NCBI RefSeq assembly: GCF_003003795.1
Contig: NZ_PVWK01000140.1
Coordinates: forward strand, 1-64,000
Source: Stenomitos frigidus ULC18
GTDB taxonomy: Bacteria > Cyanobacteriota > Cyanobacteriia > Leptolyngbyales > Leptolyngbyaceae
Direction of reading: 5' to 3'
Length of the DNA stretch: 64,000 nt
In this document: piece by piece, positions 33,756-42,033 of the stretch
How positions within the stretch are numbered: position 1 is the stretch's first letter
Layout of the letters: every line of letters starts with the position of its first letter
Program-made: the position numbers and the translations under genes
Notes under the pieces: model-generated
Database searches by the model: none
Told to the model about the DNA's origin: nothing
Seen by the model: only the letters and a program-made list of their open reading frames with translations

Positions 33756-34134
33756 AGCGTCATCGTTTGGATTCAGTGGCTGAACGCGATCGCCCTTGCC
33801 TCGTAGGTTGGCTTGACACTATCCAGATGCCGCTAAAGCCTATGAATGTTGGGTTTTATGCTTCAACCCAACCGACAAGAACGGCGAACGACTGTGCCCT
33901 TCAGGAAGCAAGCAACGTCGCGCGTCTCTGGGATGCCAAAGGCTTTAGCGCGATCGCACGTGTCTAACAAAGTTTCGGTATAACTCCGTCAAAGTGGGGT
34001 GTTATCCCGCAGATCTGCTGTTGAAGTCCATAGTTTGGCGGCAGAAGCTCAGAGCCTCGGATCCGTCGCCGCGAAAGACAGCTCGGACTCAGTTTAGCCA
34101 CAGCACAGCACTTGTACTTCTACAGGAGTTCTTC
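33756..34134. other. Intergenic region upstream of the peroxidase gene
   Basis: About 380 bases without a supported gene. It includes GTTGGGTTTTATGCTTCAAC (33848-33867), a small imperfect hairpin like the TTGGGTT pair near 30.95 kb. The right part, from about 34020, changes to the GC-rich composition of the peroxidase gene, so the foreign segment may begin there. Confidence 0.5.
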
Positions 34135-35715
34135 ATGCAGACGTCAAACCAACCGCCAATCCAGGACGCGCGAATGTTCCAGGACTCGCTCTACCGAAGC
34201 CACCGATCGACCGCCGTTGCGGGTATGGCCCTGGTCGATGATTTCAGCAAGATGTTCCCAAACCTACCGTCATTCGAGGACGGACAGAACACGGGTGACT
34301 TGCTCCAGCGCCTCCAGCAGCTAGCCCGCAAGGGTGGGCCAATGGACGCACTCGACCCGACCGTCACGATCACCAATCCGCTTGGAGGGAATGACGCCGA
34401 TCGGAACCCCAACAACCAGAACCCAGACATGACCGTCGGGTTCACCTTCCTCGGTCAGTTCCTTGATCACGACATCACGTTCGACCCGGCAGCCCTGAAA
34501 GATCCGCCCACCAGTCCGAACCTGCGGACACCCTTCTTCGACCTGGACAGCGTATACGGCCGGGGACCAGACCAGGACCGGGTGCTCTACGACCGGACGA
34601 GTGAACTCGATCGCCCAACCGCGGCCCGTTTCCTGATCGACTTCGATGCCGTCCGGGATCTGCCGCGGACTAGTCAGCAACGGGCTATCACTGCCGACCC
34701 GCGGAACGACGAGAACGTCATTATCAGCCAGCTCCATCTGGCGTTCCTGAAGTTCCACAACCGGGTTACTGATCAAGTGGAGGCGGAAATGACCACAGCC
34801 GCAGTCGCAGCCGGGCTACCCTTGCCGCCCCCGGGGGCGGTGTTTGAGGAGGCCCTCAAGAGGGTCCGGTGGCACTACCAGTGGATCATCGTCTGGCAGT
34901 TCTTGCCCGCGACCCTAGACAAGGACGTGTACAACCAGGTCCGGAACGACAGGCCGACCTTGTTCCTCCCATCCGCCCGCCCGAAGATTCCCCGTGAGTT
35001 CCAAGTCGCCGCCTACCGGTTCGGGCATAGCCAAGTCCGCCCCGGCTACAAGGTTAACGTCGGCTTTGGGGCACCGATCTTCGATGCCCGAATCGACCCC
35101 CGGGAGGGTGACCCGAACGACCTCCGGGGTGGTCGCCGCGCCCCCCGACGGTTCGTCGAATGGGACACGTTCTTCAACTTTGGGACGCAGGAGATCAACC
35201 CTGACACCGGAGCCGTCCGAGCGAAGGTGAAGCAGAATAAGCGGATTGACCCGTTCCTCTCGACCCCGCTGTTCGACCTGCCAGTCGGCCCAGGGCTGCC
35301 ATCCCCCGCAGACGACGTACGAACCCTGGCCGGACGGAACCTGGAACGACACATCCAACACCACCTCGCGTCCGGACAGGACATCGCCGCGGCCCTCGGT
35401 TATCCCGCGCTCCAAACGGCGGACTTTCCCGCGGACGTGCAGGCTCTCGGGTTCGACGTGAGCACGCCGCTCTGGTATTACATACTGCTTGAGGCATGGC
35501 GGCAGCCGGGTCGGCCACCGCAGCAGCAGGGACAGCGGCTTGGTCTGGTTGGCAGCCGGATCGTCGCTGAGGTTTTCCTCAGTCTGCTTCTCAGCGACCC
35601 CGATTCGTATCTGAGTCGGCAGCCTGAATGGACACCGACCCTGCCGCAGCGAGACGGGCGCGTCACTGGGTCCTTCACCATGACAGACCTATTGACGTTC
35701 GCTGGGGTCGCCTGA
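34135..35715 (+). CDS. Haem peroxidase of the animal-type (peroxidase-cyclooxygenase) family
   Basis: The 526-residue protein has the landmarks of the myeloperoxidase fold: a distal motif FLGQFLDHDITF with Gln108, Asp111 and His112, the catalytic Arg190 in ADPRNDEN with Glu193 nearby, FHNRV helix, and the proximal His298 in AYRFGHSQVRP. It should oxidise substrates with hydrogen peroxide using covalently bound haem. No signal peptide is seen. ATG at 34135 is preceded by CAGGAG. The gene is clearly richer in G and C than its neighbours, favours CGG, CCG and GAC codons and contains no complete HIP1 site, so recent acquisition is likely. Confidence 0.9.
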   Translation: MQTSNQPPIQDARMFQDSLYRSHRSTAVAGMALVDDFSKMFPNLPSFEDGQNTGDLLQRLQQLARKGGPMDALDPTVTITNPLGGNDADRNPNNQNPDMTVGFTFLGQFLDHDITFDPAALKDPPTSPNLRTPFFDLDSVYGRGPDQDRVLYDRTSELDRPTAARFLIDFDAVRDLPRTSQQRAITADPRNDENVIISQLHLAFLKFHNRVTDQVEAEMTTAAVAAGLPLPPPGAVFEEALKRVRWHYQWIIVWQFLPATLDKDVYNQVRNDRPTLFLPSARPKIPREFQVAAYRFGHSQVRPGYKVNVGFGAPIFDARIDPREGDPNDLRGGRRAPRRFVEWDTFFNFGTQEINPDTGAVRAKVKQNKRIDPFLSTPLFDLPVGPGLPSPADDVRTLAGRNLERHIQHHLASGQDIAAALGYPALQTADFPADVQALGFDVSTPLWYYILLEAWRQPGRPPQQQGQRLGLVGSRIVAEVFLSLLLSDPDSYLSRQPEWTPTLPQRDGRVTGSFTMTDLLTFAGVA

Positions 35716-36348: not shown

Positions 36349-36747
36349 ATGTCTAGCCCTCAATTTGATCCCGAAGCCATCCTAGAATGCGCCCGCTCCA
36401 TCCGCCCCGCTTTACCAGCTCTCCTGGGATCTGAAGCCGCTCTGGTCGATCGGCAACTGGCTGATCTACTGACACAAGCCAAGGCTGGACAACCTGTTGG
36501 CACCCAAATTTTAGAACTGCTCCAAAGCGACCCCAGAATCCGCAATTGGGCAGCGGAATTTCTTGCGCCACACCAAATTTCAAAGGGATTTGAACCACTG
36601 GCTGGCAGAAGTGGGGATGTCTCCGCTGCAAAATATGTTTGCCCTGATGGCGACTATGTCTGGTATCGCCGCACAACGGGTGAACAAATGCCCTCATGTC
36701 CAACGCACGGTGCCCTGGTTCGGGCTAATCGGGAGGACTCCATGTGA
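36349..36747 (+). CDS. Small cysteine-bearing protein, first gene of the caspase operon
   Basis: The 132-residue protein begins MSSPQFDPEAILECARS. It has an alpha-helical N-terminal part (about 1-85) and a C-terminal zinc-ribbon-like segment YVCPDGDYVWYRRTTGEQMP followed by SCPTHGAL. The motif C-P-x-G-D ... C-P-x-H-G suggests one metal or a small folded unit. Similar short tails occur in cyanobacterial conflict-type gene clusters with caspase-like proteins, but this is recalled from family knowledge and not proven here. The stop overlaps the next start (TGATG). Confidence 0.7.
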   Translation: MSSPQFDPEAILECARSIRPALPALLGSEAALVDRQLADLLTQAKAGQPVGTQILELLQSDPRIRNWAAEFLAPHQISKGFEPLAGRSGDVSAAKYVCPDGDYVWYRRTTGEQMPSCPTHGALVRANREDSM

Positions 36748-37685
36748 TGCCCACTAAATTTCTTGAAAGTCTGGGCGGTAAACTAGCCGAGCAATGGGCC
36801 GCCAATCTGCTCACCCCTGCCTTTATTTTCTGGAGTGGTGGGTTAGCCGCCTGGATTGACAAGTTTGGTTGGAATCGCTTACAGCAATGGTTTACCCAAC
36901 TTGATGAACCGCTCCAAATTGCTGTTCTGGTGAGTAGCTTGCTGCTGGTTGCAGCAACTGCCTTTGCCATCCAGCGGTTTGATCTGACAGTCCTGCGGTT
37001 TTTTGAAGGCTACTGGCCCACCTGGATGAATTTTCTGCGGCGGCGATTGCTGGCGCAACAACGACAACGGGTAAACCGGTTAAATACTCGTTGGCAGGCC
37101 CTCGCAGCACAGCGCGATCAGGAGGGTCTAACGGCAGAAGAGGTGGATGAGTTTGTGGCGATCGACTGGCGACTCCGGCAAGTCCCGGCTCAACCCGATC
37201 GCATGATGCCAACTAGTCTGGGAAATCTGCTGCGAGCCGCTGAGAGCCAACCCAGGGATAAGTATGGGTTAGATGCGATTATTTGCTGGCCTCGTCTGTG
37301 GTTGGTTTTGCCAGAGGCGATCAAGCAGAATTTGCAGGAAACCCGTGCCGAACTCAACACCGCCGCGCGGGTTTGGCTATGGGGAATCCTCTTTTTGATC
37401 TGGGCAGTTTGGGCATGGTGGGCGATTCCTGTTGCGTTACTGGTGGCGTGGTTTGCCTACGGTTGGATGCTGGGAGCCGCAGCTACCTATGGAGATCTGC
37501 TGGAGTCTGCTTTTGACCTGCATCGCCTCGATCTTTACCAGGCGCTTCACCTGCCACCGCCCTCCAGTCCGGCTGAGGAACGGCCACTCGGTCGGCAACT
37601 CACAGAGTATCTCTGGCGAGGGAGCGATCGCGAGAAACCGGGGTTTGTTTATCCCCAGGAGGGTGATCGCCATAAACCTAACTAA
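36747..37685 (+). CDS. Membrane protein, second gene of the caspase operon
   Basis: This 312-residue protein has an N-terminal hydrophobic stretch (TPAFIFWSGGLAAWI), a second (PLQIAVLVSSLLLVAATAFA), then a basic and Gln/Arg-rich soluble region of about 130 residues. Two adjacent helices near the C-terminus follow (VWLWGILFLIWAVWAWWAIP and PVALLVAWFAYGWMLGAA). No family was recognised. ATG at 36747 overlaps the previous stop by one base. It could anchor or regulate the caspase protein encoded next. Confidence 0.75.
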   Translation: MPTKFLESLGGKLAEQWAANLLTPAFIFWSGGLAAWIDKFGWNRLQQWFTQLDEPLQIAVLVSSLLLVAATAFAIQRFDLTVLRFFEGYWPTWMNFLRRRLLAQQRQRVNRLNTRWQALAAQRDQEGLTAEEVDEFVAIDWRLRQVPAQPDRMMPTSLGNLLRAAESQPRDKYGLDAIICWPRLWLVLPEAIKQNLQETRAELNTAARVWLWGILFLIWAVWAWWAIPVALLVAWFAYGWMLGAAATYGDLLESAFDLHRLDLYQALHLPPPSSPAEERPLGRQLTEYLWRGSDREKPGFVYPQEGDRHKPN

Positions 37686-37732
37686 GTTGAATTTTCCCCG
37701 GATATTCCCGCCTGTTTACAAAGGTGCTGGTT

Positions 37733-40690
37733 ATGAGTCGAGATGCGCTGGTTGTCGGTATTAATCTCTATCAACCGGGTGGCTTACAACAATTGCGATC
37801 GCCTGCCAATGATGCCGAAGCGATCGCCCAACGGTTAGAGCAGTATGGTCACTTTCGAGTCTGGCGACTGCCAGAATTCCTTGATCCCTTCGATCACAAT
37901 GCTCACCGGATTGCCCAAAACCAGACCGTCACCGCCACCCAGTTAGAAGAAGCACTGGTACGGCTCTTTAAGCCAGAGGGTGAGCATATTCCAGAGACGG
38001 CACTGTTTTACTTCTCCGGTCATGGCTTGCGGAAAAACCGGGGCATTCAGGAAGGCTTTCTTGCCACTAGTGAAGTCAATCCAGACACTGATCAGTGGGG
38101 GTTATCCCTCCAATGGTTGCGGCGACTCTTGCAAGCCAGTTCAGTGCGGCAGCAAATTGTTTGGCTGGACTGTTGCTACAGTGGCGAATTACTCAACTTT
38201 GAGGAAGCCGATCCAGGCGATCGGGGCAAAGGCCGCGATCGCTGTTTCATTGCCGCCTCGCGAGAGTTCGAGGTTGCTTATGCAGAGGCTGGCGGGCCAC
38301 ACAGTGTGCTAACAGAAGCCCTGATCCGAGCCTTAGATCCCACGGAGCGACCGAATGGGGTGGTCACTAATTTCACCATCACAGAGTTTCTGGAGTCTCA
38401 CCTGAGAACCGCCACCCAAAGCCCTCTGTTTGCCAACTCTGGCGGCAAAATTATGCTCACAGGGCGGCCTCAAGTCCCCGATCGCGTCGTCGCAGAAGAG
38501 AAATGTCCCTATAAAGCATTAAATTATTTTGATTGCAACGACGAAGATCCCAAATACTTTTTTGGCCGCACAGCACTCACGGATGCCCTGATTGAAAAAG
38601 TCCGCACCGGAGATTTTCTGGCTGTGGTCGGTGCTTCTGGCAGCGGGAAATCTTCCGTTGTGCGCGCCGGGCTGATGCATCAATTGAAATCGAGTTCCCG
38701 ACTTTCTGGCAGCAATCAATGGTCGATTCACCTTTTTCAACCGGGTGTCCATCCGCTCCAAAGTCTAACTAACGCCTTTTTAACGGCGGAAGCATCAACG
38801 GTAGATCAAGCGGCTCAGTTGCAAAAGCTGACTCACCTGATCAGCGCTGGTTCAACGGGCTTAGGGCATTTGGTCGATGCGACACCTCATCGGCTAGTGC
38901 TCGTCATCGACCAGTTTGAAGAATGCTTTACCCAGTGTCGAGATGAGGCCGAACGGCAAGAGTTTTTTGCCTGTTTACTGGGAGCCTTAGAGCGCTCTGA
39001 TCACAAATTGTGCCTTGTCCTGACGCTACGAGCAGACTTTTTGGGCAAATGCTTAGAGCAGGACTACTCCGGACTGGCGAAACAAATTCAGGATCATTTA
39101 GTGCCTGTCACCCCCATGACCCGGGAGGAACTCGAGCAAGCCATTGTTGAACCTGCCAAACAAGTGGGTCTGGAGATTGAACCCGATCTGGTGTCTCAAA
39201 TGATTATCGATGTGCAAGGTGCACCGGGTAGCCTGCCCTTGCTGCAATATACCCTAACGGAACTTTGGCAGCATCGAGCGGTCAATTGGCTGACTTTTGC
39301 CGCCTACACGAACCTGGGTGGCGTGCGCGGTACGCTCCAGCAAAGTGCAGAAGCGCTCTATGCTGCCCTAAACGCCCAAGAGCAAGATGTCGCCAAGCAC
39401 ATTTTTCTGGAACTGACTCAATTGGGTGATGGGGACGGGGTAGCCGATACTCGCAGACAAGTTCCGAAACGAGAGTTCATCTCAACTCAACAGTCAGCAG
39501 CAATGGTCGAAGCGGTACTTCTCCGCCTCTTAGAGGCACGACTGCTGGTTACAACAGAATTAATTGAGAAAAATCAAGCCGCTCGTCACGTCGAAGTCAT
39601 TGATGTGGCCCATGAAGCCCTGATCCGTTACTGGCCCAGACTTCATGGCTGGATTGAGGAAAATCGGGTGGCTTTGAGAAAGAAGCATGAGCTTGAGGCA
39701 GCGGCAGGAGTTTGGTTGGAAAACGGGAAAGCCACTGAACTGGCCTACCTTCTGCAAGGTTCAAAGTTGTCTGAAGCGCGGGCGTTCATTCAGGAGCATG
39801 GCGATCGCCTGCCGCTTTCCAGTACCGCTATCGCTTTTATCCACATCAGTCGCGTGCAAGAGCGCCAACGACAGCGCATGCGGTGGAGTATCATACTCGC
39901 CTTTCCAACGCTGATCATCCTCTTTCTGGGAGTGTTTGGCCTGCAACAGCAAACGTCAAAGCAAAGGATTCAACAAACGATTCAAGGGCTGTTCCTATCC
40001 GATGATCCTGCGACTGTTGCACAGGCTTTGCCACTGTCTTTTACCGCAGCTCAGCAACTGGAAAGGAATCCCACCAACGAAAATATTGATCTTGCCCTCT
40101 CTTATTACCGGCGAATCATGGTTGTTACTTCCAGATTGGCAAAGCAACCGCCAAATCCATTGAATAGCCCCTTTAGTCAAGCACACGCTCAAGCCGAAAG
40201 TGGAATGGCTGCCCTGATCAATCGATACAGAATGGGGGAATTGAAGAACGATCTTGAGCATCCACAATTTGGCAAACCGATTCCGAATGCAAAATTTACT
40301 CTATTTGAAAAGGCGTTTACCCATGGAGCCCTACAAACCACCTACAAAATTTTGATGCTTAATTTTGGTGCAGGAGCCGATCTCAATCGGGATGGTCAAC
40401 TCAGTGAAGATGAAGCACAATTAATGCCCTGTGAAACATTAAAGGAAATTGAAACACTATGGCAAGCCCAAAAATCAAATTGCAGCTGGGATGATACTAC
40501 CTGCATTGAGATGCCGATCGACAAAACACAAAAGCTTTCAAGTCAGTCTCTCGCAACAGCTATTTTTGACCCTGCCGGAGTCGAGTATGCCATCGATCGA
40601 ATTAAAGCTTGTCACCCAATCAAGAACAAAACGGCAGCTAGTTCCGTCAACCCATCATTAAACTCATCGAATGGACATCAGTCATCATGA
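37733..40690 (+). CDS. Caspase-like protease fused to an nSTAND ATPase, membrane helix and EF-hand
   Basis: The 985-residue protein begins with a caspase (p20-like) domain (about 1-245) with His97 in FYFSGHGLR and Cys148 in LDCCYSGE. The nSTAND1-type ATPase follows with a P-loop GASGSGKSS (300-308), Walker B LVLVIDQFEECF (about 389-399) and the nSTAND elements LRADFLG and GSLPLLQYTLTELW. A membrane helix lies at about 716-738. The last 245 residues are not WD40 or TPR repeats, as is usual, but a helical region with a textbook EF-hand loop DLNRDGQLSEDE (883-894). It is probably a membrane-anchored protease triggered by a ligand or by calcium. GTG 37724 is an alternative start. Confidence 0.88.
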   Translation: MSRDALVVGINLYQPGGLQQLRSPANDAEAIAQRLEQYGHFRVWRLPEFLDPFDHNAHRIAQNQTVTATQLEEALVRLFKPEGEHIPETALFYFSGHGLRKNRGIQEGFLATSEVNPDTDQWGLSLQWLRRLLQASSVRQQIVWLDCCYSGELLNFEEADPGDRGKGRDRCFIAASREFEVAYAEAGGPHSVLTEALIRALDPTERPNGVVTNFTITEFLESHLRTATQSPLFANSGGKIMLTGRPQVPDRVVAEEKCPYKALNYFDCNDEDPKYFFGRTALTDALIEKVRTGDFLAVVGASGSGKSSVVRAGLMHQLKSSSRLSGSNQWSIHLFQPGVHPLQSLTNAFLTAEASTVDQAAQLQKLTHLISAGSTGLGHLVDATPHRLVLVIDQFEECFTQCRDEAERQEFFACLLGALERSDHKLCLVLTLRADFLGKCLEQDYSGLAKQIQDHLVPVTPMTREELEQAIVEPAKQVGLEIEPDLVSQMIIDVQGAPGSLPLLQYTLTELWQHRAVNWLTFAAYTNLGGVRGTLQQSAEALYAALNAQEQDVAKHIFLELTQLGDGDGVADTRRQVPKREFISTQQSAAMVEAVLLRLLEARLLVTTELIEKNQAARHVEVIDVAHEALIRYWPRLHGWIEENRVALRKKHELEAAAGVWLENGKATELAYLLQGSKLSEARAFIQEHGDRLPLSSTAIAFIHISRVQERQRQRMRWSIILAFPTLIILFLGVFGLQQQTSKQRIQQTIQGLFLSDDPATVAQALPLSFTAAQQLERNPTNENIDLALSYYRRIMVVTSRLAKQPPNPLNSPFSQAHAQAESGMAALINRYRMGELKNDLEHPQFGKPIPNAKFTLFEKAFTHGALQTTYKILMLNFGAGADLNRDGQLSEDEAQLMPCETLKEIETLWQAQKSNCSWDDTTCIEMPIDKTQKLSSQSLATAIFDPAGVEYAIDRIKACHPIKNKTAASSVNPSLNSSNGHQSS

Positions 40691-42033
40691 AAACCCTCTA
40701 TGATTCATCCCAACCATCCGCATCTCAACATTCACAACGAAAGTTTTATCAGAGGCTACTAGCCCTGATCACACTCACTTTAATGCCTGTTAGTGTATTT
40801 GCAAATGCCCTTCAAGCCTTTGCCATTCCACAATCCGCCACCATTGCTGACTTGAAACCTGAATCAGGCAGTGGTGTTCCTGCCATTCGCATGGATCAGA
40901 AGCAACGCCCAGCGCCAGCCTCAAAAAATCAAACCATCAATTTGCAATTCCAAAATAGCATTCCAAGACAGTCTATCCTGGTGGTGGGTGGTCAACGCAG
41001 TCAGGTGCACGTCAGGTTCGACCATCCGGCTGATCCACTTTTGCAAATTGGTCCTGGTGATAGCGCTACAGAATACCTCTTTCCCTGTGCAATTCATGGC
41101 GCTGCAACGATCGGATGGAAAGCCATGAACCGGAATAGTAGGGGTTGCACTTCCGTCATTGCTAAATCGGGTCGAGGGCCCTCCGCAATGAACCTTCCCA
41201 AAGCAACTGGGTATCAACTGGGTCTGGCCAGCGACAAAAGCTTACAGGCAAAAAATCCTGCGGGTTCTTTTCAATATTGTAGTGTTTTGGAAGAGGCTGG
41301 CTCAGGGTGGGGATTTAGCGATTCGACCGATGGCACAACGAACCCCTGTCAAAAAGCAATTGAAGAGTGCAAGAGTAACGGGGTTGCTGGTTCCTGCGAG
41401 GTGGCGACCCTGGGTGAAGAACCACTGGAGACGCAAGAACTAATGGCCTTCGTTCAATGTTCTGGAAATATCGTCTTCCCAGCTAAAGGCAGTGGTCAAA
41501 GCATGGTGGACTCAGAACTCAAGACATTACACCAAGAGGCTCGCTACATAAATGGTAAGTCATGTTTTATTAATGTCTATCACCCAGGGGATGTGGCGAT
41601 TTCTCCTGCCAGTGATGACGTCACGCTAATCCAACTCCAACCGCTCAACTCTGGCAGCATCGAAGTGTCGGTATTAGTGGGATCAGTAGACATCGTATCA
41701 GTAGACAGGCAGCATAGTCTGAGGCTGCAAAAAGGCAATAAGTATCAATCGGGTGAAAATATCATTAAGCCTATAGACTGCCCCAAAACTTTAGGTTCGG
41801 GATCCATGCAATCTTTTCTAAATCCTGCACTTTGGGCGGGTGCGCCAGGAATCTCAAGCCAATTAGCAGAATACAAACAAAAATTTTGTGCAACGGGGGG
41901 ATCGCCTGAGCGACCAACAGAACCTCCCACCGGAATTAATATTCCCTTTCCTTTGCCCCGACCAATACATAGAGGAAACGATGGTAGAGGAAATAATGGT
42001 GGGGGAAACAATCTATTGATTCCTCTACGGTAG
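40687..42033 (+). CDS. Secreted FecR-like protein, fourth gene of the caspase operon
   Basis: The 448-residue protein has a signal peptide (RLLALITLTLMPVSVFANA, about residues 24-42). An N-terminal domain contains cysteines and strands (NLQFQN, QVHVRFDHPADPLLQIGPGD). A later region resembles the FecR fold (PGDVAISPASDDVTLIQLQP and IEVSVLVGSVDIVSVDR), and the tail is Pro/Gly-rich (PTEPPTGINIPFPLPRP, NDGRGNNGGGNN). ATGA overlap with the caspase gene shows translational coupling. It is exported and may be a sensor or a substrate of the system. The family call is tentative. Confidence 0.7.
   Translation: MKTLYDSSQPSASQHSQRKFYQRLLALITLTLMPVSVFANALQAFAIPQSATIADLKPESGSGVPAIRMDQKQRPAPASKNQTINLQFQNSIPRQSILVVGGQRSQVHVRFDHPADPLLQIGPGDSATEYLFPCAIHGAATIGWKAMNRNSRGCTSVIAKSGRGPSAMNLPKATGYQLGLASDKSLQAKNPAGSFQYCSVLEEAGSGWGFSDSTDGTTNPCQKAIEECKSNGVAGSCEVATLGEEPLETQELMAFVQCSGNIVFPAKGSGQSMVDSELKTLHQEARYINGKSCFINVYHPGDVAISPASDDVTLIQLQPLNSGSIEVSVLVGSVDIVSVDRQHSLRLQKGNKYQSGENIIKPIDCPKTLGSGSMQSFLNPALWAGAPGISSQLAEYKQKFCATGGSPERPTEPPTGINIPFPLPRPIHRGNDGRGNNGGGNNLLIPLR

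Follow-up and report, generated by a model that had tools for sequence, protein, structure and literature searches.

What would a caspase-like protease respond to, and on what might it act, when a nucleotide switch, a membrane helix and a sensor-like tail follow it in the same chain? This question is raised by four genes on the forward strand of contig NZ_PVWK01000140.1 of Stenomitos frigidus ULC18, at positions 36349-42033 of the 64,000-nucleotide stretch that we analysed (hereafter the window; loci, genomes and contigs are labelled L, G and C, and G000 is the window's genome). The best reading of these sequences is an envelope-sensing STAND-protease receptor within a known class of conflict systems; in particular, we give about even weight to the proposal that gene 3 encodes a membrane-spanning STAND-class receptor whose sensor lies outside the cytoplasm and works with the secreted product of gene 4, and whose protease lies inside. 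What appears new and unusual is the GUN4-derived sensor, predicted to lie outside, with a secreted partner, together with a second gene pair linked to proteases. The features are as follows, residues of gene 3 being numbered from the ATG at 37733.

36349..36747, + strand: gene 1, 132 residues, helical N-terminus and zinc-ribbon-like C-terminus, no Pfam match at E ≤ 1
36747..37685, + strand: gene 2, 312-residue membrane protein, no Pfam match at E ≤ 1
37733..40690, + strand: gene 3, 985 residues, caspase-nSTAND1-membrane helix-tail
37745..38338, + strand: caspase (Peptidase_C14), gene 3 residues 5-202, Pfam 48.3 bits, His97/Cys148
38507..39733, + strand: nSTAND1 nucleoside triphosphatase (NTPase), gene 3 residues 259-667, Pfam 414.6 bits
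39887..39943, + strand: membrane helix by hydropathy, gene 3 residues 719-737, N-side predicted inside by the positive-inside rule
40328..40462, + strand: GUN4-related tail segment, gene 3 residues 866-910, from Pfam, profile-profile comparison and motifs
40379..40414, + strand: calcium-type loop DLNRDGQLSEDE by motif, gene 3 residues 883-894
40687..42033, + strand: gene 4, 448 residues, predicted secreted partner
40687-40824, + strand: probable signal peptide of gene 4, by eye

The layout agrees with that given by an earlier sequence-only reading of this DNA: four genes on one strand, with overlaps TGATG at 36745-36749 (genes 1 and 2) and ATGA at 40687-40690 (genes 3 and 4), and a gap of 47 bases (37686-37732) between genes 2 and 3. 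The parts claimed for gene 3 were all located as well. Both Pfam matches exceed their cut-offs (21.4 bits for Peptidase_C14, 27.1 bits for nSTAND1), the caspase dyad is formed by His97 within SGHG and Cys148 within LDCCYSG, the P-loop GASGSGKS is at 300, Walker B (VIDQFEE) is at 391, and a single hydrophobic segment occurs at 719-737. Of the PADLOC models, a generic caspase model (E 2.4e-15) and, weakly, two mads models are matched by gene 3; genes 1, 2, and 4 have no match at E ≤ 0.1, and no described anti-phage system was recognized. The proposal of a membrane-held protease that has a secreted partner and, in its tail, a calcium-type loop is borne out by what we observe, but the helix after nSTAND1 is not peculiar to this tail: hydropathy also places one in a 1771-residue caspase-nSTAND1 protein of the same genome (L044), and none in L076. 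Separately, the window's genome has two caspase-nSTAND1 genes back to back and divergent (L043 4924-10697, G000:C54).

The side of the membrane on which the tail lies is indicated by the charged residues around the helix. Lysine and arginine flanking it total 99 on the N-side and 34 on the C-side, with an N-side excess in 19/19 proteins, and we therefore place the tail outside the cytoplasm by the positive-inside rule. Four cysteine columns of the tail are kept in 17-18 of 18 rows and may form disulfides.

The tail consists of a short TPR-like stretch followed by a segment homologous to one half of GUN4, which has acquired a calcium-type loop as an insertion and has the conserved cysteines. 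When the tails alone are searched, Pfam GUN4 matches 13 of 18 at E ≤ 1 (best 6.9e-7), and hhalign pairs columns 190-259 of the tail profile with columns 17-80 of seven GUN4 domains of the window's genome (E 6.6e-6, probability 84.8%), which has nine GUN4 matches over the cut-off in all. The GUN4 motif ADxETYxxML...G...FPCxDLRTIDQLW has its counterpart in ALRTTYxILM...GAGADLNNDGxL...LPCExLKEIExLW, the calcium-type loop being an insertion between the two shared stretches. Judged by these profiles and motifs, the tail is homologous to the core segment of GUN4 over about 65-70 residues. The homology covers part of the domain: in the relatives, positions 17-86 of the 141 in the GUN4 profile are matched, the full-length proteins of L041, L042, L086, and L087 reach 14.5-27.6 bits against a Pfam cut-off of 29.2, and GUN4 is absent from the Pfam matches of the window's own gene 3 at E ≤ 1. 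The 22 loci hit weakly by the tail profile comprise 8 of GUN4 type by motif, 6 with WD40-type repeats and 8 unclassified. Unlike GUN4, the tail lacks the second half of the domain, carries the inserted loop and four conserved cysteines, and is predicted to be outside the cytoplasm; in most tails, a CGWYG-like sequence replaces the GRFGFSVQ-type stretch of GUN4.

The tail might instead be cytoplasmic, the hydrophobic segment being just an anchor or a buried helix, the GUN4-like domain sensing a tetrapyrrole or a metal inside the cell and gene 4 being a mere frequent neighbour. Known GUN4-caspase fusions, which are taken as internal sensors in PMC7159879 and PMC2853523, would fit such an arrangement. 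The positive-inside bias in 19/19 proteins, the four tail cysteines and the adjoining secreted protein speak against it, as do the match to about the first half of GUN4 only and the loss of the GRFGFSVQ stretch, and we regard it as quite improbable.

The sequence-only reading had seen an EF-hand in the tail. The calcium-type loop is indeed there and conserved, D-x-[ND]-x-[DN]-G being complete in 18/21 tail loci, but the tail does not belong to an EF-hand family and is related to GUN4 instead. The assignment is rejected because no EF-hand family is among the 11 Pfam families matching gene 3 at E ≤ 1; nor is one among the 25 of 38 Pfam families shown for the 18 tails, and the loop is single, not one of a pair. 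A profile search of the PDB with the tail returned TPR proteins around positions 77-113 (best E 7.4e-5) and dockerin calcium loops at 191-220 (E 1.1). The possibility that the tail aligns to ordinary repeat sensors and that its loop is not conserved can be set aside, since one short TPR-like stretch is all that was found and the loop is kept. Two tail genes, L073 7341-9373 and L074 133-1692, are without the loop; L073 is possibly decaying, because the loop is lost and the gene is split into two frames.

If gene 4 is a partner of this tail, the two should be found together. The window tail as a single query occurs in 8/386 cyanobacterial genomes (5/194 within the 194-genome sample), and the tail profile (18 rows) finds the same 8/386 at ≥275 bits, the next match reaching 41 bits; G390 has a broken fragment with stops matching the tail at 40.9 bits. 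Within the window's family, the tail is present in at least 10/42 genomes and at least 13 loci. Gene 4 as a single query occurs in 6/194 genomes, and its profile scores ≥196 bits in 9/386, among which are all 8 tail genomes. The five tail genomes of the 194 all fall within the six gene-4 genomes (2.8e-9 with shared ancestry ignored), and the 8 within 9 of 386 give 8e-16, a value that ignores shared ancestry and comes from profiles partly built from the same genomes. Indeed, alignments A1 and A5 contain proteins from genomes later searched with them; A1 leaves out L073, L075, and L100, and the gene-4 alignment A5 leaves out L042, L064, L068, and L075, which are independent profile hits, the other A5 rows matching by construction.

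At the level of gene order, a gene-4 relative lies immediately next to the tail gene and in the same orientation in 19/21 loci, these being the loci of the genome sample and the family search plus L100 (L099, L101, L102, and L103 are the same as L085, L068, L071, and L065 and were counted once). The claim that a secreted partner is kept beside the caspase-helix-tail protein thus holds well. One of the two exceptions, L073, has a broken tail gene and a contig end about 600 bases on; the other is L087. The pair was also seen in 5/5 loci from Tolypothrix brevis, Phormidesmis priestleyi ULC007, Lyngbya sp. HA4199-MV5 and two Leptolyngbyaceae; four of these five coincide with loci of the genome sample or the family search. 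In the neighbouring loci, gene calls came from a simple longest-frame script that missed some genes (for example the first L042 gene-4 copy and gene 2 of L169). In L068 and L100, nSTAND1 is 76 and 74% identical, respectively, to that of L065, whereas the tail shares 53-60% identity with the L085/L071 type, which is also the nearest type for gene 4 (30-42%). This suggests that tail and gene 4 have moved as a pair in both loci.

Gene 4 begins with a signal-peptide-like stretch, seen by eye and in hydropathy, consistent with its predicted export. Its description as FecR-like did not survive: none of the 19 gene-4 proteins, that of the window included, matches Pfam FecR at E ≤ 1, and the window's protein has a single Pfam match, below cut-off at E 0.14. 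The core contains two cysteine columns invariant in 18/18 rows. The C-termini, in contrast to the core, vary among the 19 proteins, with CAP in four, TonB_C in one, an Ig-like Big_9 in one (below cut-off) and Pro/Thr repeats in one. A further relative, the neighbour of the tail gene in G194, has 627 residues and three SLH repeats; although it was no part of the gene-4 profile, that profile recovers it at E 3e-16. CAP, SLH, TonB_C and Ig-like domains are usual in secreted or envelope proteins. Gene-4 relatives also occur in tandem pairs downstream of CHAT-type receptors (L086 8629-11485, L042 7554-10002, L088 7885-10269), and that of G118 stands divergent from genes for LRR/pentapeptide and TPR-LRR-CHAT proteins.

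A caspase or CHAT domain is fused or adjacent in 13/21 tail loci. Eight have a caspase (the window, L039, L064-L068, and L087; L068 encodes it in a frame of its own that overlaps), CHAT is by Pfam part of the chain in four (L041, L042, L086, and L088), and L071 has a separate CHAT gene directly upstream of the receptor. The His and Cys are aligned, by eye, in 8/8 caspase-type and 4/4 fused CHAT-type receptors. No protease was seen in L069, L073, L074, L075, and L100, whose loci are partial or broken. The protease-less receptor of L070 (7303-11620) follows three small genes (165, 222, and 160 residues), and the layout of L069 is alike by size.

The genes upstream of some relatives bear on what the protease would do. 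DUF1822 genes lie upstream of the receptor in L039, L041, L042, L086, and L087, and two of these five loci also have a sigma-70 region 4 gene, over the cut-off in L087 and just under it in L086 (23.7 bits against 24.1). Such neighbours would suit envelope-stress signalling in place of death or defence, the outside sensor activating a protease that cuts a regulator, such as a sigma factor, and so evokes a transcriptional response; a transcriptional step is indeed proposed in PMC8195603 for extracytoplasmic function (ECF) sigma factor and DUF1822 genes beside EACC2-caspase proteins. On the other side, no DUF1822 or sigma gene was found among the one or two neighbours tested for each of L064, L065, L066, L067, and L068, none is apparent by eye among the open reading frames adjoining the window operon, and the presence of genes 1 and 2 beside the window protease suggests a membrane output instead. 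We consider the stress-signalling alternative somewhat unlikely. Other neighbours of tail loci are Trypco1 genes at L065 (9737-10132) and L068 (4079-4486), and FGE-sulfatase and TIR-FGE genes at L064 (10739-12946); Trypco1, FGE-sulfatase and TIR-FGE are parts named in papers on conflict systems.

Genes 1 and 2 form the second part of the locus. In gene 1, the second Cys of a C-x(2-4)-C motif present in many relatives is replaced in the window, and no hydrophobic segment passes the threshold. Gene 2, read earlier as a four-helix membrane protein, is a membrane protein by hydropathy, with three to four hydrophobic segments; it has the conserved motifs FEGYW and MPT-LGN-LR-AE...KYGLDA--CW-RLW, and reaches 17.3 bits against NCBIfam PspM, whose cut-off is 80. 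It occurs in 6/194 cyanobacterial genomes and, fragments counted, in 10/42 genomes of the window's family, both sets including the window's genome.

A caspase or CHAT gene lies near gene 2 in 14/16 loci. Caspase-nSTAND1 is found in the window, G194:C1, and G226:C100, and CHAT in G033, G045, G135, G066, G002, G216 (two loci), G194:C2, and G203:C19, with CHAT identified through Pfam in five loci and through phmmer in four. In G033, G045, G194:C2, and G203:C19, gene 2 and CHAT are separated by one or two open frames, and in the last of these, which is among the 14, gene 2 itself is broken. In G226:C22 (L168 5782-13437) and G229:C20 (L169 2438-9988), a 423-residue caspase (residues 10-258, Pfam) is fused to the gene-1 ribbon (about 368-419); in G226:C22, the fusion is followed by gene 2, a pair of EAD10 proteins and a protein with nSTAND1, and the layout of L169 matches by size and phmmer. 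The two loci with no protease near gene 2, G202:C115 and G200:C11, both hold gene-2 fragments, and the fragment loci G199:C6, G203:C13, and G223:C104 are outside the 16. The gene-1-only locus G170 (L038) has no caspase, CHAT or gene-2 hit. Over the cut-off, the 6.98 megabases of the window's genome contain 13 matches to caspase and 24 to CHAT, about one per 190 kilobases, a density at which chance adjacency would be small. The association of genes 1 and 2 with caspase or CHAT genes, judged from these neighbourhoods, is therefore well beyond chance, although the loci are related to one another.

Are the two pairs then one operon? The run of four genes is real, but it consists of two modules that are mostly found apart in other genomes. 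The suspicion that the four never occur together elsewhere is narrowly contradicted, all four being present in a single other genome, G194 (L064), in the order 3-4-1-2. Conceivably, the two pairs are transcribed as unrelated units and lie side by side by accident, as their separation in most genomes and the 47-base gap would allow; the abutment in G194 with the order swapped, the caspase or CHAT genes near genes 1-2 in 14/16 loci, the two ribbon-caspase fusions and the low protease density all argue otherwise, making this explanation unlikely. A scan for promoters and terminators found fewer sites than in shuffled sequence and is uninformative. A gene at 33994-35715, upstream of the operon and in the same orientation, encodes a 573-residue protein that, by eye, we take to be haem peroxidase-like.

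Caspases with associated sensors have been described in several forms. EACC2-caspase proteins have variable C-termini, among them STAND and outside domains with a membrane helix, and genes for DUF1822 and a sigma factor often accompany them (Kaur et al. 2021, PMC8195603); in section 9 of that paper, a CHASE2 outside domain follows an EACC2-caspase. The receptors share with them the protease near the N-terminus, the variable C-terminus and, in part of the relatives, DUF1822 and sigma-type genes upstream; some relatives probably belong to this class. The window receptor differs in having STAND and the outside domain in one chain, and a GUN4-derived tail and a secreted partner do not feature in the class as described in sections 7 and 9 of PMC8195603; there is also no room for an EACC2 domain before the window caspase, because the Pfam match begins at residue 5. 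EACC1-caspases form two-gene systems, and GUN4 is seen as an internal sensor (Kaur et al. 2020, PMC7159879, whose main text mentions neither FecR nor EF-hand). Here, the likeness lies in the membrane-linked caspase and exchangeable C-terminal parts including STAND; unlike EACC1, with its single membrane helix, gene 1 is without one and gene 2 has several. Membership of gene 3 in NCBIfam NF047832 (caspase, EACC1-associated type) was rejected, as it scores 100.3 bits against a cut-off of 140 and gene 1 has no segment over the threshold.

Cyanobacterial orthocaspases are likewise joined to switches or sensors, the fusions including NACHT, WD40, GUN4, ANF-receptor and CHASE2 (PMC2853523), and WD40, AAA_16, GUN4 and Peripla_BP_6, with membrane helices in 67/473 (PMC8283722). 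A caspase-STAND-helix-GUN4-like chain with a secreted partner differs from those described in the passages covered of these two papers. The NACHT and lectin domains of one target are predicted to be periplasmic (PMC10907252). The claim of an unusual signalling design needs correction in one respect, caspases with an outside sensor domain having already been described or predicted (PMC8195603, PMC2853523). The literature covered, which largely consists of papers free of subscription and was seen in part, contains no GUN4-derived tail with a calcium-type loop, no such secreted partner, no gene 1-gene 2 pair, nothing on a STAND NTPase with a transmembrane, periplasmic sensor and a protease, nothing that links GUN4 and porphyrin to calcium and an EF-hand, and nothing on TPR-CHAT with a membrane protein, a caspase and a bacterial gasdermin.

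TPR-CHAT proteins with a dedicated partner are known from the type III-E craspase. The present system resembles them in that a clan CD protease has dedicated neighbours, and differs in that these are a zinc-ribbon protein and a membrane protein.

Several findings weigh against a receptor with an outside, calcium-binding sensor and a secreted partner. In L087 (G420), the gene-4 relative lies about 3.5 kilobases off on the opposite strand, and G118 (L040 8512-10158) has gene 4 without a tail gene. Co-variation of tail and gene 4 first looked strong (0.59, none of 5000 permutations), but the distance correlation drops from 0.70 (14 loci) to 0.15 without two close pairs and is zero in seven caspase-type loci; because of this dependence, we do not use it as evidence. 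Calcium binding by the tail loop would follow from its motif, which deviates by a residue in L041 and is missing from L073 and L074; in most loci the loop exceeds a canonical EF loop by one residue, that of the window having by eye the canonical 12. The helix is of borderline hydropathy in L065 and L070 (1.54-1.55) and L069 (1.60), the threshold being 1.6. Among the structural comparisons, GUN4 is not among the 48 hits of the PDB profile search, the AlphaFold2 model of the tail is moderate (predicted local distance difference test 65.3), Foldseek with that model gave no match at E ≤ 0.001, its best hits being unspecific helical proteins such as 14-3-3, and the gene-4 model (49.3) is unusable, its confidence being too low for a fold search. 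The seemingly whole L070, L072, and L085 have nSTAND1 and no protease by Pfam at E ≤ 0.01, so the protease is a common, not a constant, part; by predicted domain content, the constant parts of the module are nSTAND1, helix, tail and gene 4. Finally, genes 1 and 2 adjoin this receptor in only two genomes and are found more often with CHAT.

With these points considered, a membrane receptor reading an envelope signal is still the most economical model, because the sensor is predicted to lie outside. The tail, with its TPR-like stretch, GUN4-derived domain and conserved cysteines, would be in the periplasm or the thylakoid lumen, the helix-loop-helix derived from GUN4 being extended into the calcium-type loop. 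The secreted gene-4 protein might contact it as a co-receptor or ligand carrier for the GUN4-derived domain, and its swappable C-terminus (CAP, SLH, Ig-like, TonB_C or Pro-rich) would decide what is touched. Oligomerisation driven by nucleotide is how STAND proteins and clan CD proteases bring their effector domains into proximity. Here, too, binding, release or loss of calcium could cause the nSTAND1 NTPase to oligomerise inside the cell, bringing the caspase (or CHAT) domains together and making them active. The likely first clients in the window would be gene 1, with its zinc ribbon, and gene 2, which may be a membrane effector; a transcriptional output is possible in those relatives that have DUF1822 together with a sigma-factor gene. 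The biological output might be an envelope-breach or phage alarm leading to cell death, and the system looks like a cell-death or defence alarm in that it has the parts. A bolder version, which we find speculative and rather improbable, would be a transmembrane inflammasome: a GUN4 core turned into a calcium-loaded periplasmic domain, with a secreted co-receptor bearing interchangeable envelope-binding tips, would sense a breach of the envelope or of a calcium store and fire the caspase or CHAT at the zinc-ribbon/membrane-protein pair.

Of the STAND immune proteins characterised so far, the majority detect signals within the cell. If the receptor reading is correct, genes 3 and 4 would encode a bacterial receptor that reports an attack on the envelope before anything enters, and a domain of the pigment pathway, GUN4, would have been reused as an outside sensor. 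The natural substrates of cyanobacterial caspase and CHAT proteases are, to our knowledge, mostly unknown, and the gene 1-gene 2 pair offers a candidate target or effector that may be common to both.

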